In this document: positions 1,751-34,240 of the stretch, piece after piece | How positions within the stretch are numbered: position 1 is the first letter of the stretch | Layout of the letters: every line of letters starts with the position of its first letter | From: Ktedonobacterales bacterium | Lineage (GTDB): Bacteria > Chloroflexota > Ktedonobacteria > Ktedonobacterales > DATBGS01 | DNA: 64,000 nt | Assembly: GCA_036557285.1 (NCBI GenBank) | Contig: DATBHW010000018.1 | Coordinates: 1-64,000 of the forward strand | Direction of reading: 5' to 3' | Translations under genes and position numbers: made by a program | Notes under the pieces: generated by a model | What the model was told of the DNA's origin: nothing | The model's input: the letters and a program-made list of their open reading frames with translations, nothing else | The model's database searches: none

Positions 1751-2503
1751 ATGCTGAGTGAACTGCTTCCACTGAAGCCTGGGATGATCGTTGCGCTGAT
1801 CGGGGCTGGCGGCAAAACAACCACTATGTTTCGGCTGGCAGCAGAGCAGGCGGCTCGCGGCCTGCGGGTCATCACCACCACCACCACCTATATCTTCCCG
1901 CCGGGCGCAGAGCAGACGGGAACGCTCGTGCTGGAGACAGACCGCGCAGCCTTACTGGCGGGAGTCGCCGCTGCGCTGGCGAGGCAGCTTCACATCACAG
2001 CAGCCACAGCGGCTACCCCTGAAGGCAAACTGCGCGGCGTGCCGCCAGAGTGGGTAGCTGATCTGCTCAGCCTTCCAAAAGTGGACTTCGTGCTGGTAGA
2101 GGCCGATGGCGCAAAGGGGCGCATGCTGAAAGCTCCGGCGGAGCATGAGCCAGCGATTCCCTCCACAGTACATCTCGTCTTATTGCTGGCGAGCGCCGAG
2201 GCGCTGGGGATGCCGCTGAGCGACGCTATCGCGCATCGGCTGGACCGTGTAGAAGCTATCACGAGCTTGAAGGCTGGCGAAATCTTGACACCCCAGGCGC
2301 TTGCCAGATTGGCAGCACACCAGGAAGGGTTATTGAAAGGCGTACCACAGGGGGTACCCGCCGTCCTGGCGCTGACACACGTAGATGAGCGCAACCTGGA
2401 CAGCGCAGAGAAGACCGCCCGGCATGCCCTCGCCTCCGGGCGTCTGGCTGGCGTATTACTTTGCTCATTGGAGTGGGCGCAATTCAGGAAGAACGGGGCA
2501 TAG
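1751..2503 (+). CDS. yqeC: YqeC-family accessory protein for selenium-dependent molybdenum hydroxylases
   Basis: This 250-residue protein has a clear Walker A motif, GAGGKTT, at residues 18-24, followed by a Thr-rich strand and VLVEADGAKGR, the layout of the YqeC family. YqeC is linked by comparative genomics to selenium-dependent molybdenum hydroxylases, probably in maturation of the labile selenium cofactor; its exact reaction is not settled. The ATG is preceded by GAGGAG at good spacing. It is monocistronic and ends 20 bp inside the end of the convergent GAF gene. The 22-bp operator array lies directly upstream. The partner YqeB is encoded at 10547-11356. Confidence 0.85.
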   Translation: MLSELLPLKPGMIVALIGAGGKTTTMFRLAAEQAARGLRVITTTTTYIFPPGAEQTGTLVLETDRAALLAGVAAALARQLHITAATAATPEGKLRGVPPEWVADLLSLPKVDFVLVEADGAKGRMLKAPAEHEPAIPSTVHLVLLLASAEALGMPLSDAIAHRLDRVEAITSLKAGEILTPQALARLAAHQEGLLKGVPQGVPAVLALTHVDERNLDSAEKTARHALASGRLAGVLLCSLEWAQFRKNGA

Positions 2504-3557
2504 CTCCTGAGAGTTGATAATCCATTGCCACCGCCACGATATTGCTCATGTTGAGCATGGCGCGCAATTCGCTGGTATCGAAGGGCGTAGAACGCGCCAG
2601 GATAACCACTCCACGAAGCTGGTCCCTTGAAAGCAGCGGAACACCGAGCAGCGCCAGGTCATCTTCCCCAAGCAGTTCTTCTGTGACGCGCCCAACAAAG
2701 ACTCGCCCCCCTGGCGCGTGTAAGATGGGGCGGCGCTTTTGGGCGACCCAGGCGGCAACCGATTGCTTATCGCTGGCCGGAATGCGCAGTTTCTCAAGTT
2801 GAGTATCGTGCGCGCCCAGCCGGGCCACCGCCCTTAGCTCCTGCGCCTCCTCTACATAGCCAAAAATGACCGCCTCATCACAAGGCACTAAGCGGCGGAG
2901 CATGGCGACAATCGCCCGCAAAATCTGCGGCGTCCCCATCATACTCGTCATAGCCCGCGCCACATCCAGAAACGCGGCCAGTTGCTGCGCCTGTCGGTGT
3001 GACGCTTCTGCCTGGCGCGCTCTGGAAATTGCCAGAATAGCCTGGTCGGCCAGCGCCTGAAGCATCCTGAGCGCCTGCTGGTTGAACATCCTGGGAGACG
3101 GGCTTGAGACGGTAATCGCGCCAAGCAATTGCTCGCCCGAAAGCAGGGGTACACACAGCATCGAGCCGCGCACAGGGGCGCCAGACCCCTGGCAGCGCGG
3201 ATCGCTCGAAACATCGTTAATCAGGGCGGGGGCACGGTTGGCCGTCACCCAACCCGCGACACGTTGTTGCATAGGCGCGCGGACGCGGCTTGATTCGGGA
3301 GCATCTTGAGAAAGAGCGGCTATCGAGATAAGCTGATTGCTGGCAAGGTCTACCCCCGTAATCCAACAATGGCGCGCTCCCAGCAACGCCAGCGCGTTTA
3401 CCATGATCTGTTTGAGCGTTTCAGCCAGATCGCTCACCGACTGGGTATGATGGGCAGCGCGATAAATCGGTCTGGTGGGCCTGGGGCCAGCCGGATCATA
3501 CCCAAAGCGAGCGCCTTCCTGGTTGCTGTCCTTCATTGTCGGCGCTGAAGCGTTCAT
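2484..3557 (-). CDS. Tandem GAF-domain protein
   Basis: The protein (357 residues from this start) carries two GAF domains, roughly residues 45-180 and 195-345, joined by a helical linker. Typical GAF features are LCVPLLSGEQLLGAITVSSP in the first and LLGVPLLSRDQLRGVVILAR in the second. GAF domains bind small ligands or mediate dimerisation. There is no attached kinase, cyclase or DNA-binding domain, so it is probably a soluble sensor or adaptor. The start is uncertain: ATG at 3557 or at 3536 both lack a strong ribosome-binding site, and a TTG at 3662 seems too far upstream. The gene converges on yqeC with a 20-bp overlap of the two reading frames. Confidence 0.75.
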   Translation of the reverse strand: MNASAPTMKDSNQEGARFGYDPAGPRPTRPIYRAAHHTQSVSDLAETLKQIMVNALALLGARHCWITGVDLASNQLISIAALSQDAPESSRVRAPMQQRVAGWVTANRAPALINDVSSDPRCQGSGAPVRGSMLCVPLLSGEQLLGAITVSSPSPRMFNQQALRMLQALADQAILAISRARQAEASHRQAQQLAAFLDVARAMTSMMGTPQILRAIVAMLRRLVPCDEAVIFGYVEEAQELRAVARLGAHDTQLEKLRIPASDKQSVAAWVAQKRRPILHAPGGRVFVGRVTEELLGEDDLALLGVPLLSRDQLRGVVILARSTPFDTSELRAMLNMSNIVAVAMDYQLSGAMPRSS

Positions 3558-3664
3558 AATCTTTTGGGCGCGGATACCCACGCGCTTGCGGCGTGGGAGG
3601 AAGCGCCCCCTCCTCTCGATTTCTGGTTTTGCTTGCCTCTGGTAGAATAGATCACGGTGCAAGG

Positions 3665-3863
3665 CACTCTGGCGAGGCAGCTACCAGAGCAACGGTCACG
3701 CACCTTTCCACTCAGGCGTAGGGGGTTCCGGCGAGTAGGCACCGTCGCCGGGTAAAACGCTGGCGGCATCTGCCTACACGGCTGATGTCAAGCAGCCGAT
3801 GGTAGCCACGACGCTTGCGCGTCGTGAGTTACAAGCTCCCGCCTAAAGGCGGGGGTACTTGAC
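3665..3863 (+). ncRNA. Omega-RNA-like right end of an IS200/IS605-type element, no TnpB
   Basis: About 200 bases form a series of perfect stems on the plus strand: GTAGGCA (3735-3741) with TGCCTAC (3771-3777) around an inner GC-rich stem, CGGCTG (3779-3784) with CAGCCG (3793-3798), CACGACGC with GCGTCGTG (3807-3826), and CCCGCC with GGCGGG (3838-3853), then TACTTGAC. The order ending in an AAGCTCCCGCC hairpin and TTGAC resembles the omega-RNA and right end of IS605-type elements. A tnpB gene would be expected upstream on this strand, but that position holds the GAF gene on the other strand. It is either a remnant, a TnpB-less mobile palindromic element, or a solo guide RNA. Confidence 0.45.
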
Positions 3864-4166
3864 AGTATCTCCCCTTCGTTCAATCTGAGCATCTTCGCTC
3901 ATATCATCCGCTTCCAGCCGTTGCTCACAGGGCAGCCTGCCAGATTCAACCGCCCTTGCTGCCTGGAGCTTACCCACCAGGCAGCAAAAAGCATGCCAAC
4001 TTGCCGCTGCCTGTACCGCCAGCCTCCGTGCTGGCGCAACGTTGGCCTGTTGATACGTTGTCCTTGAGAGCGGGCGTCCGCGCTAGCGAGCCGTCTCGCC
4101 GCCAGGGACGGCGGCGGTACACGCGACGGCCTCTTGCTCATATTGTCGGGAGGGGTGGCTGTGCTG
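3864..4166. other. Intergenic stretch rich in short hairpins
   Basis: No gene was recognised. It holds several perfect inverted repeats: GCTGCCTGG (3958-3966) with CCAGGCAGC (3977-3985), and CGCCAGC (4017-4023) with GCTGGCG (4030-4036). A GC-rich palindromic block near 4090-4115 may be a decayed copy of the dispersed repeat described elsewhere. These may act as 3' structures for xdhC, which ends at 4167. Confidence 0.45.
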
Positions 4167-11356: not shown

Positions 11357-12129
11357 CTCCAACCGCTCAGGCGCATGGCCTGCGTAATGCGCTGCCCAGC
11401 CTCGCATACCGCCCGAATAAACTCAGCCTGGCGTGGGTGGCAGCGTTCGCTCGGCCCACCTACCGAAACGGCGGCAGTAACAGCGCCCGTTTGATCGAAG
11501 ATCGGCGCGGCTACCGCTTCCACTCCCACCTCTAACTCTCCGCAAGAGACCGCATAGCCCCGCGCGCGCACCTGGCGCAGTTCTTCGAGAAGCCGACGCG
11601 GATCAGTAATCGTCTGCCCGGTATAACGCTTCAGAGACATCTCCGAGAGCAAGTCTCGCAGACGGCCCTCCCACTGATACGCCAGCAGTGCTTTCCCAGT
11701 TGAAACAGCATGGGCCGGAAGGTGCTGGCCGGGTACATTCACTTCGCGCACAAAATAATAAGAATCTTCGGTATCAATGATAACAACATCCAGGTGTTCC
11801 AGCACCGCCAGATGCACAGACTCGTGCGTCTGATCGCGCAGGTCCAGCAAGATCGGTCTGGCCGCACGACGAACCGTATTGGTACTGAGGAGGCCCGCGC
11901 CAAGTTCGGCTACCCGCAGGCTCAGTTGATATTTGTGGCTGTCCTCGTCCTGAATGAGCAAGCCCTCAGCAACGAGCGCGCTGACGATACGATGAACCGT
12001 TGATTTTGGCAAGCCGGTCAGTTCCGCCAGTTCGGTAATGCGCAGCAATCCCCGGCTCTGGAACGCAGAAAACACGGAGGCAACCCGGCGCACCGTCTGA
12101 ACTGTGCCATTGCTCTCACCGTGCCGCAT
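11353..12129 (-). CDS. IclR-family transcriptional regulator
   Basis: The 258-residue protein has an N-terminal winged helix (RVASVFSAFQSRGLLRITELAELTGLPKSTVHRIVSAL in sequence order, residues about 14-50) and a C-terminal IclR ligand-binding domain ending in VSVGGPSERCHPRQAEFIRAV. IclR proteins often control aromatic or purine catabolism. The ATG at 12129 has a nearby GAGG and leaves the operator at 12159-12173 outside the gene; an upstream ATG at 12174 would put the operator inside the coding region. It heads the leftward xdh operon and is divergent from adenine deaminase, so it probably controls both. Confidence 0.88.
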   Translation of the reverse strand: MRHGESNGTVQTVRRVASVFSAFQSRGLLRITELAELTGLPKSTVHRIVSALVAEGLLIQDEDSHKYQLSLRVAELGAGLLSTNTVRRAARPILLDLRDQTHESVHLAVLEHLDVVIIDTEDSYYFVREVNVPGQHLPAHAVSTGKALLAYQWEGRLRDLLSEMSLKRYTGQTITDPRRLLEELRQVRARGYAVSCGELEVGVEAVAAPIFDQTGAVTAAVSVGGPSERCHPRQAEFIRAVCEAGQRITQAMRLSGWR

Positions 12130-33960: not shown

Positions 33961-34240
33961 TGCAAGCCTCCTCGGAGTATCCGGCTGAGGAGGCGCATAA
34001 AGAAAACCGCCTCAGCCGACATTACCGACCTGGGGCGGCACGCAGGAGAACACGCCAGCGCACAGCCCTGATACGGGCGTGCGCTCACGATTCGACCTTC
34101 TCCCATCCAGACTGTAACTGTCGGCTCCGGCCTCACACCGGATCTGCCACGCAGAAGCGCGGCTCGCGGGCTTGGCGTCAGCCATCTGAGCGGACGCCAT
34201 ACCGCCGGTCGGGGATTTCACCCTGCCCCGAAGGTCACGT
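33961..34240 (-). promoter_or_regulatory. FMN riboswitch with expression platform
   Basis: On the minus strand about 34236-34093 matches the FMN (RFN) aptamer: GGGGCAGGGTGAAATCCCCG, CCGGCGGT, AAGCCCGCGAG, GGCCGGAGCCGACAGT and GATGGGAGAAGGTC, closed by pairing of GACCTT with AAGGTC. Downstream, GAGGAGG (33973-33967), the ribX ribosome-binding site, can pair with CCTCCTC (33993-33987). That same strand can instead pair through CCTCAGCCG (33990-33982) with CGGCTGAGG (34018-34010). The two hairpins exclude each other, as expected for translational control by FMN. Confidence 0.93.

Follow-up and report, generated by a model that had tools for sequence, protein, structure and literature searches.

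A putative guide-RNA-only element of IS200/IS605 type in a Ktedonobacterales genome, and related tnpB-less loci across Chloroflexota

Introduction

The nearest described relatives of the locus reported here are the TnpB systems of IS200/IS605 elements, in which the omega-RNA (reRNA) overlaps the 3′ end of tnpB. As far as the accessible parts of the two sources go, TnpB makes its guide from its own mRNA, trimming the 5′ side of that mRNA (PMC10278001), and the omega-RNA of ISDra2 comprises a stem 1, a pseudoknot from the loop of this stem to the last bases of the scaffold, and stems 2 to 4 (PMC10097598). Two other kinds of element are relevant, again from partial texts: standalone omega-RNAs that function with IscB are cited in PMC9581776, and PATEs, or ends-only IS605 elements, are short, have IS605 ends and are often moved by a transposase in trans (PMC7290912).

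Here we describe a 306-bp element (3558-3863, plus strand) in the window, by which we mean the whole 64,000-nucleotide stretch of Ktedonobacterales DNA analysed. Its RNA resembles the omega-RNA of ISDra2 in the pairing of stem 1 with the 3′ end and in the terminal hairpin, and, as in IS200/IS605 TnpB systems, the predicted guide lies in the 3′ flank and the predicted TAM to the left of the left end. Unlike the published TnpB omega-RNAs, it overlaps no tnpB and has a start region of its own, and an extra 5′ domain of about 110 nt lies outside the 116-nt scaffold published for ISDra2. It is like the standalone IscB omega-RNAs, so far as the partial source describes them, in having no effector alongside, but the scaffold is of TnpB type whereas IscB/HEARO RNA is another family; it differs from PATEs, which are bare ends, in having a conserved RNA gene inside. 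A literature search of partial coverage found no title on TnpB-type standalone guides or on the 5′ domain.

The best explanation of the whole, to which we assign a probability of roughly 0.7, is a non-autonomous element of IS200/IS605 type that codes for a single RNA but for no protein and guides a borrowed TnpB. Evidence from sequence alone reaches as far as matching ends, a TAM-like flank, a complete scaffold that continues at its 3′ end into host DNA (the predicted guide), and a 5′ domain that recurs with this scaffold in tnpB-less elements, which we call solos.

A TnpB-type scaffold without tnpB

The right part of the element, including its right end, is by sequence and structure a complete TnpB-type omega-RNA scaffold (3775-3863, plus strand). 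Our covariance model R1 was built, with the window left out, from 23 aligned right ends of tnpB genes related to the TnpB gene on contig C73 of the same genome, and it matches the window once only, at 3775-3863 (60.8 bits, E=3.1e-15). One of the 23 is C73 itself, so the genome of the window is represented in the set; the other 22 come from other genomes. In an alignment of 24 sequences, stem 1 (GGCTG/CAGCC, 3780-3797) is laid out as in the ISDra2 omega-RNA, and its loop contains GTCAAG (3787-3792), which by covariation is the 5′ strand of a pseudoknot with CTTGAC (3858-3863), the last bases of the element. Sequence and folding indicate a middle stem (CACGACGC/GCGTCGTG, 3807-3826), and folding and alignment a terminal hairpin, stem 4 (CTCCCGCC-TAAA-GGCGGGGG, 3836-3855). 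The pseudoknot helix is paired in 24/24 sequences, with 11 and 13 double changes at two of its pairs, and is intact in the window; the structure overall has 75 double-change cells in the 24 sequences, window included, versus 22.2 when shuffled.

An omega-RNA scaffold is recognized by sequence and structure, including the 3′ pseudoknot, and by its position at the 3′ end of a tnpB. The first holds here and the second does not: upstream is a GAF-domain gene on the opposite strand, and a PF01385 search gave no match on the contig of the window. We therefore describe the RNA as a standalone variant. Its assignment to the TnpB type, on the plus strand, is supported by the model match and the predicted pairing.

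The first-pass annotation, made from the letters alone, had described a ladder of four perfect stems at 3665-3863, ending in a hairpin and TTGAC. That the stems are real is borne out by folding: 3660-3863 reaches -99.4 kcal/mol versus -77.0 (sd 4.1) for 200 dinucleotide shuffles, none of which was as good (z -5.5). They are not four independent stems, but two RNA domains and the long-range GTCAAG/CTTGAC pseudoknot, and of the extent only the right end at 3863 stands, the left end being at 3558. The terminal hairpin with TTGAC behind it, the resemblance to an IS200/IS605 guide-RNA end (the R1 match), the lack of tnpB within the element and the unrelated opposite-strand gene upstream (2484-3557) had all been read correctly.

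The right boundary of the element is set by the scaffold model and the left by a comparison of left ends, located in a second DNA search with 3560-3880 as the query in 41 genomes. The left end (3558-3618, plus strand), with its hairpin CCCACGC (3577-3583)/GCGTGGG (3591-3597), is 95% identical to the contig ends of C81 and C17, 96% to C3:105544 upstream of a tnpB, and 86 and 83% to two copies on C42. The first 141 bases of C81 and C17 are identical and were read as a left end and a short open frame, from which we infer that a multicopy element likely broke the assembly. At C42:69751 of genome G000, a left end has no PF01385 gene behind it and may mark another element without tnpB.

The features expected of an IS200/IS605-type element, subterminal hairpins at either end and a constant flank to the left of the left end, are both present, and there is no tnpA or tnpB inside 3558-3863. 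The Y1 TnpA is not encoded within the element, which is thus at most a non-autonomous IS200/IS605 derivative; six Y1 transposase matches lie elsewhere in the genome. An extended -10-like sequence, TGGTAGAAT (3640-3648, plus strand), was recognized by eye 7 nt 5′ of the first stem of the RNA, and at its position other solos have TGNTATACT or TTGACA-17-TATCCT; a promoter scan of the element passed no -35/-10 promoter. Rfam at gathering scores named nothing in the region of the element. Elsewhere in the window, Rfam finds an FMN riboswitch (34091-34239, minus strand; 110.6 bits), and a CRISPR-like array occupies 958-1367, with six repeats of ~37 nt (GTTGCARTGGCC at the start, TTTGAAAC at the end), a start-to-start spacing of 73-74 nt and a degenerate last copy.

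A second RNA domain between left end and scaffold

The interior between the left end and the scaffold is a second RNA domain and not a tnpB remnant. This 5′ domain (3655-3764, plus strand) is found by model R2, which we built from nine solos in three genomes of family f4 without the window, at 23.7 bits (E=4.2e-4 in 64 kb; next-best match in the window, 9.7 bits), and the match ends ten bases before that of the scaffold. Its helix P1 (GGTGC 3656-3660/GCACC 3700-3704, by folding) encloses the conserved AAGGCAC (3661-3667) and CAACGG (3690-3695) and the helix P2 (3667-3672/3684-3689); the P3 hairpin (CCGGCGA 3728-3734/TCGCCGG 3746-3752) is followed by GTAAAA. In the 34 sequences that were fitted to the model, pairing holds in 93.7% of cells, and the 175 double-change cells exceed both the shuffled value of 45.9 and the maximum of 36 reached by sliding; helix 1 has no double change and is uninformative. 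Rfam 15 gave no match at or above its gathering score to the 5′ domain in five loci or the window, and as far as Rfam 15 goes the domain is an undescribed RNA motif. The copy in the window, although significant in the 64-kb search, is absent from the genome-wide matches of R2 at E<=0.01; judged by the sequence of its 5′ domain, the window is a rather divergent member. A match of 3660-3691 to genome G010 (L045) is coding sequence and was discarded as chance.

Solos in other genomes

We searched R1 over 47 genomes and found matches in 43. Among 40 places that were fetched because they lie away from tnpB hits related to the C73 TnpB, 12 have tnpB sequence by tblastn, 26 have none and 2 contain masked stretches (L152, L158). 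Most of the tnpB-less places are alike across genomes from left end to scaffold: a promoter-like sequence, either a -10 alone or a full one, comes first, AAGGCAC and AACGG follow with a hairpin between them, and another hairpin and GTAAAA complete the order. Judged by motif, the 5′ domain is present in 21 of the 26 tnpB-less loci (5 are without it), and no intact copy occurs in the 12 that bear tnpB. False matches of the motif script were set aside by eye: in the window it had picked a wrong place, and in L155, L159, L163 and L166 it had picked coding DNA lying ~400 nt from the end.

R2 matches 20 places in 8 of the 47 genomes. A wider search, covering 400 genomes from the phylum, added 17 places (16 fetched), spread over 8 genomes that belong to other families (f15, f53), under a stricter limit at which the hits in G000 and G033 drop out, for a total of 37 places in 16 genomes, 36 of them fetched. 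An R1 scaffold lies downstream on the same strand in 35 of these 36, after a gap of 6-119 nt (10 in the window); it is partial and weak in L193 and L200, and L198 has none. In flanks of up to 1.5 kb a side, some of them shortened by contig ends, tblastn with TnpB queries found nothing at 35 of the 36 loci and a 39-residue trace at L176. Solos are of uniform length, the range in 21 of them being 258-354 bp. The window has what marks this family, a 5′ domain directly upstream of a TnpB-type scaffold and no tnpB, and the recurrence of this arrangement at the R2 loci makes it one member of a standalone family that has only a guide RNA. Guide-only elements with a common extra RNA domain probably borrow their enzyme from elsewhere in the genome. 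In the genome of the window, C25:35258-35462 is the sole further clear solo of the kind, so spread within that genome is not shown.

Searches of contig collections with 5′-domain patterns gave 16 matches among genome contigs, of which 10 come from Thermogemmatispora and 6 from other taxa. Those six were rejected as chance, as none has an R1 scaffold versus 9 of the 10 from Thermogemmatispora (all but L221). Among viral contigs there were 5 matches, with a scaffold in L227 only (IMG/VR 3300025030_000176); this contig carries a tnpB and scaffold at 7-1126 and, 10 kb away, a complete solo (11509-11769) whose scaffold is most similar to that of the same-contig tnpB.

Eight family f2 solos from Thermogemmatispora have in common AAGGCACTG, a hairpin and AACGGCTTC; NCBI taxonomy places Thermogemmatispora tikiterensis (G023) in Ktedonobacteria, Chloroflexota. 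A model built from the Thermogemmatispora solos, R3, ranks the window second in its list of matches, at 13.5 bits (E=0.26), which is not significant, and we dropped it as independent proof of the 5′ domain in the window. R2 in turn does not find the Thermogemmatispora solos, so the kinship of the two groups rests on motif and position.

Deletion derivatives and tnpB leaders

A standalone scaffold could also be what remains of a tnpB element that passively lost its gene and is decaying, its RNA inert, with ends and scaffold persisting because TnpA needs the ends. Such decay has precedents, both in the ends-only IS605 elements on record (PATEs; PMC7290912, seen in part) and in our own set, in which L161 is a plain internal deletion with left end, tnpB start and right part ~400 bp apart. 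The scaffold of the window also scores lower (60.8 bits) than most tnpB-linked ones (66-87 bits). We nevertheless consider this origin unlikely, because, in place of tnpB, the interior holds a domain whose stems show covariation across the phylum, because the window has kept its pseudoknot intact, and because the solos are uniform in length.

The 5′ domain might instead be the ordinary 5′ leader of a tnpB mRNA, and solos internal deletions that keep leader and right end. One locus, L155 of T. tikiterensis (G023), lends itself to this: a left end, a promoter and a 5′ domain with an 8-base core deletion (928-980) stand directly upstream of a tnpB. It is the one exception, lies outside the R2 set and came to light through R3. 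In the same genome, however, the tnpB leaders of L160, L164 and L165 have no 5′ domain and lie behind another gene, tnpB is found at none of the 20 R2 loci of the 47 genomes, and an intact domain at none of the 12 tnpB-bearing loci. We regard a leader origin as improbable and read L155 as a chimera of the left half of a solo and a tnpB, although the reverse order is not excluded.

Two genes found upstream of tnpB deserve mention in their own right. In L164 of G023, an open reading frame of 270 residues without a Pfam match (167-979) precedes tnpB, and similar sequence stands ahead of tnpB in L160 and L165. In L169 (G010:C1:2669500-2672100), a gene on the minus strand for a 274-residue sigma-70-type protein (Sigma70_r2, r4; 2565-1741) is separated by 135 nt from a downstream tnpB (1605-397) that looks intact and has a scaffold; a literature search of partial coverage found no paper on TnpB with a sigma factor.

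A candidate partner TnpB

On our preferred reading of a guide-only element, the nuclease comes from another locus. The genome has 32 PF01385 tnpB matches. In a DNA search of it with 3600-3900, the only match elsewhere was C73:17010-17094, 72% identical and forming the right end of a tnpB element that ends in AAGCTCCCGC..GCGGGGGTATTTGAC. This is the nearest tnpB-linked relative of the element, in the same genome, and its TnpB looks intact: aligned with two other TnpBs, it keeps four zinc-finger cysteines and D171, E253 and D338, which we take to be the catalytic residues, and it matches solved TnpB/Cas12f chains. C73 is thus a plausible partner and the best candidate, by inference, without RNP or cleavage data. 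A search for the same right end next to a tnpB, which the first-pass annotation had proposed as a check, finds such ends in this genome (C73, C3 and, at a contig edge, C7) and in relatives.

Solo scaffolds tend to resemble those of their own genome. The best tnpB-linked match of the window is C73 (0.71; next, 0.66), and the window is one of 10 among 22 solos for which the own-genome scaffold is best, compared with a mean of 1.6 under shuffled labels and no count as high in 5000 shuffles. The 22 are the solos with a tnpB-linked scaffold of their own genome or contig in the set, and genome kinship was not controlled for; without G023 the count is 6 of 18. For 12 of the 22, the best match is not that of the own genome. 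A solo of G032 (L176) is closest to a C3-type scaffold (0.55), which suggests that the 5′ domain has been joined to more than one scaffold type.

Predicted insertion between a Shine-Dalgarno sequence and its start codon

The left flank, TTCAT (3553-3557, plus strand), is the predicted TAM/target site; on the complementary strand it reads ATGAA, with which the GAF-domain gene (2484-3557, minus strand) starts, and the ATG of this gene (3557-3555) abuts the element. TCAY stands at the left flank in 14/14 of the f1/f4 solos among those listed, with boundaries set by eye, and the tnpB elements of C73 and C3 have TCAC and TTCAT there. From TnpB biology we infer that the guide is the host flank (3864-3883, plus strand); a genome search for a second TCAY-plus-guide target with <=3 mismatches over 20 positions found none but the site itself.

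The element separates the ATG of the GAF gene from its Shine-Dalgarno sequence, AAGGGGAG, on the far side, and the predicted empty site on the minus strand is GAACGAAGGGGAGATACT joined to ATGAACGCTTC, again with boundaries by eye. A search for an empty site through the GAF gene in the genome contig collection gave 26 pattern matches and no relative, so the junction is only predicted. Antisense insertion between a Shine-Dalgarno-like sequence and a start codon is found in 9/21 solos versus 16/270 control sites (Fisher P 8.7e-6). The controls include sites in genes, and selection against genic insertions may explain part of this excess.

TldR-like proteins are nuclease-dead TnpBs, and the element might be a domesticated regulator in which the RNA and such a protein repress or tune the GAF gene, given that guide and TAM span its Shine-Dalgarno sequence and start codon. 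The two sequences that flank the predicted junction, and the excess over control sites, fit this idea. It seems to us very improbable: those controls include coding DNA, from which purged insertions can account for part of the excess, and the element splits target from TAM, so that its own copy cannot be the target.

A further possibility, that the minus strand encodes an omega-RNA of IscB type (HEARO), a family in which the guide is at the 5′ end, is rejected by the scores and barely tenable. The weak Rfam match that suggests it (20.7 bits) is far below the RF02033 gathering score of 83 bits, no HEARO RNA in the genome passes the cut-off, and the plus strand fits the TnpB model (E=3e-15). Comparable antisense scores come from the C73 tnpB right end (22.4 bits) and the C25 solo (18.5 bits), so that the match reflects end hairpins that window and HEARO RNA have in common. 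An iscB-less HEARO RNA with nearly the same end does exist in G039 (L040, C1 around 2006969; 110.3 bits); tblastn of the 3 kb examined showed no iscB, and on sequence grounds it is a standalone IscB-type RNA.

Discussion

We favour a guide-only parasite of host TnpB elements, kept by homing of the kind that full elements use. In this scheme, each step of which is inferred, a promoter inside the left end would transcribe the RNA independently, and a TnpB from another element of the genome, with C73 as the best candidate, would take it up. The loaded TnpB would cut chromosomes in which TTCAT is joined to the guide, that is, sites that have lost the element, and repair would copy the element back, whereas a Y1 TnpA made elsewhere would move it. 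The 5′ domain would, at a guess, protect or fold the free-standing transcript, a role that the tnpB mRNA plays in full elements; as TnpB trims the 5′ side of its own mRNA according to the accessible part of PMC10278001, it might trim this domain too. Mobilisation and the guiding of TnpB in trans, both raised by the first-pass annotation, remain inferences without transcript, RNP, transposition or cleavage data.

For Chloroflexota as a whole, a wider reading is evenly poised between true and false: that the phylum carries RNA-only transposons of long standing that form a class apart. Their only gene would be that of a TnpB guide RNA, transcribed independently and with a 5′ domain of its own; they would parasitise TnpB elements, their scaffold would follow that of the host's TnpB, and they would rely for homing on TnpA and TnpB borrowed from others. 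Through the 5′ domain, it would become possible to test directly, in hosts that can be cultured such as Thermogemmatispora, whether TnpB acts in trans. If the guide-only family is real, guide and nuclease genes would be separable outside CRISPR, and a split of a similar kind has been proposed for the origin of tracrRNA (PMC10097598, from the part of that source available). It would also mean that TnpB acts in trans in nature and that its homing is open to parasites.
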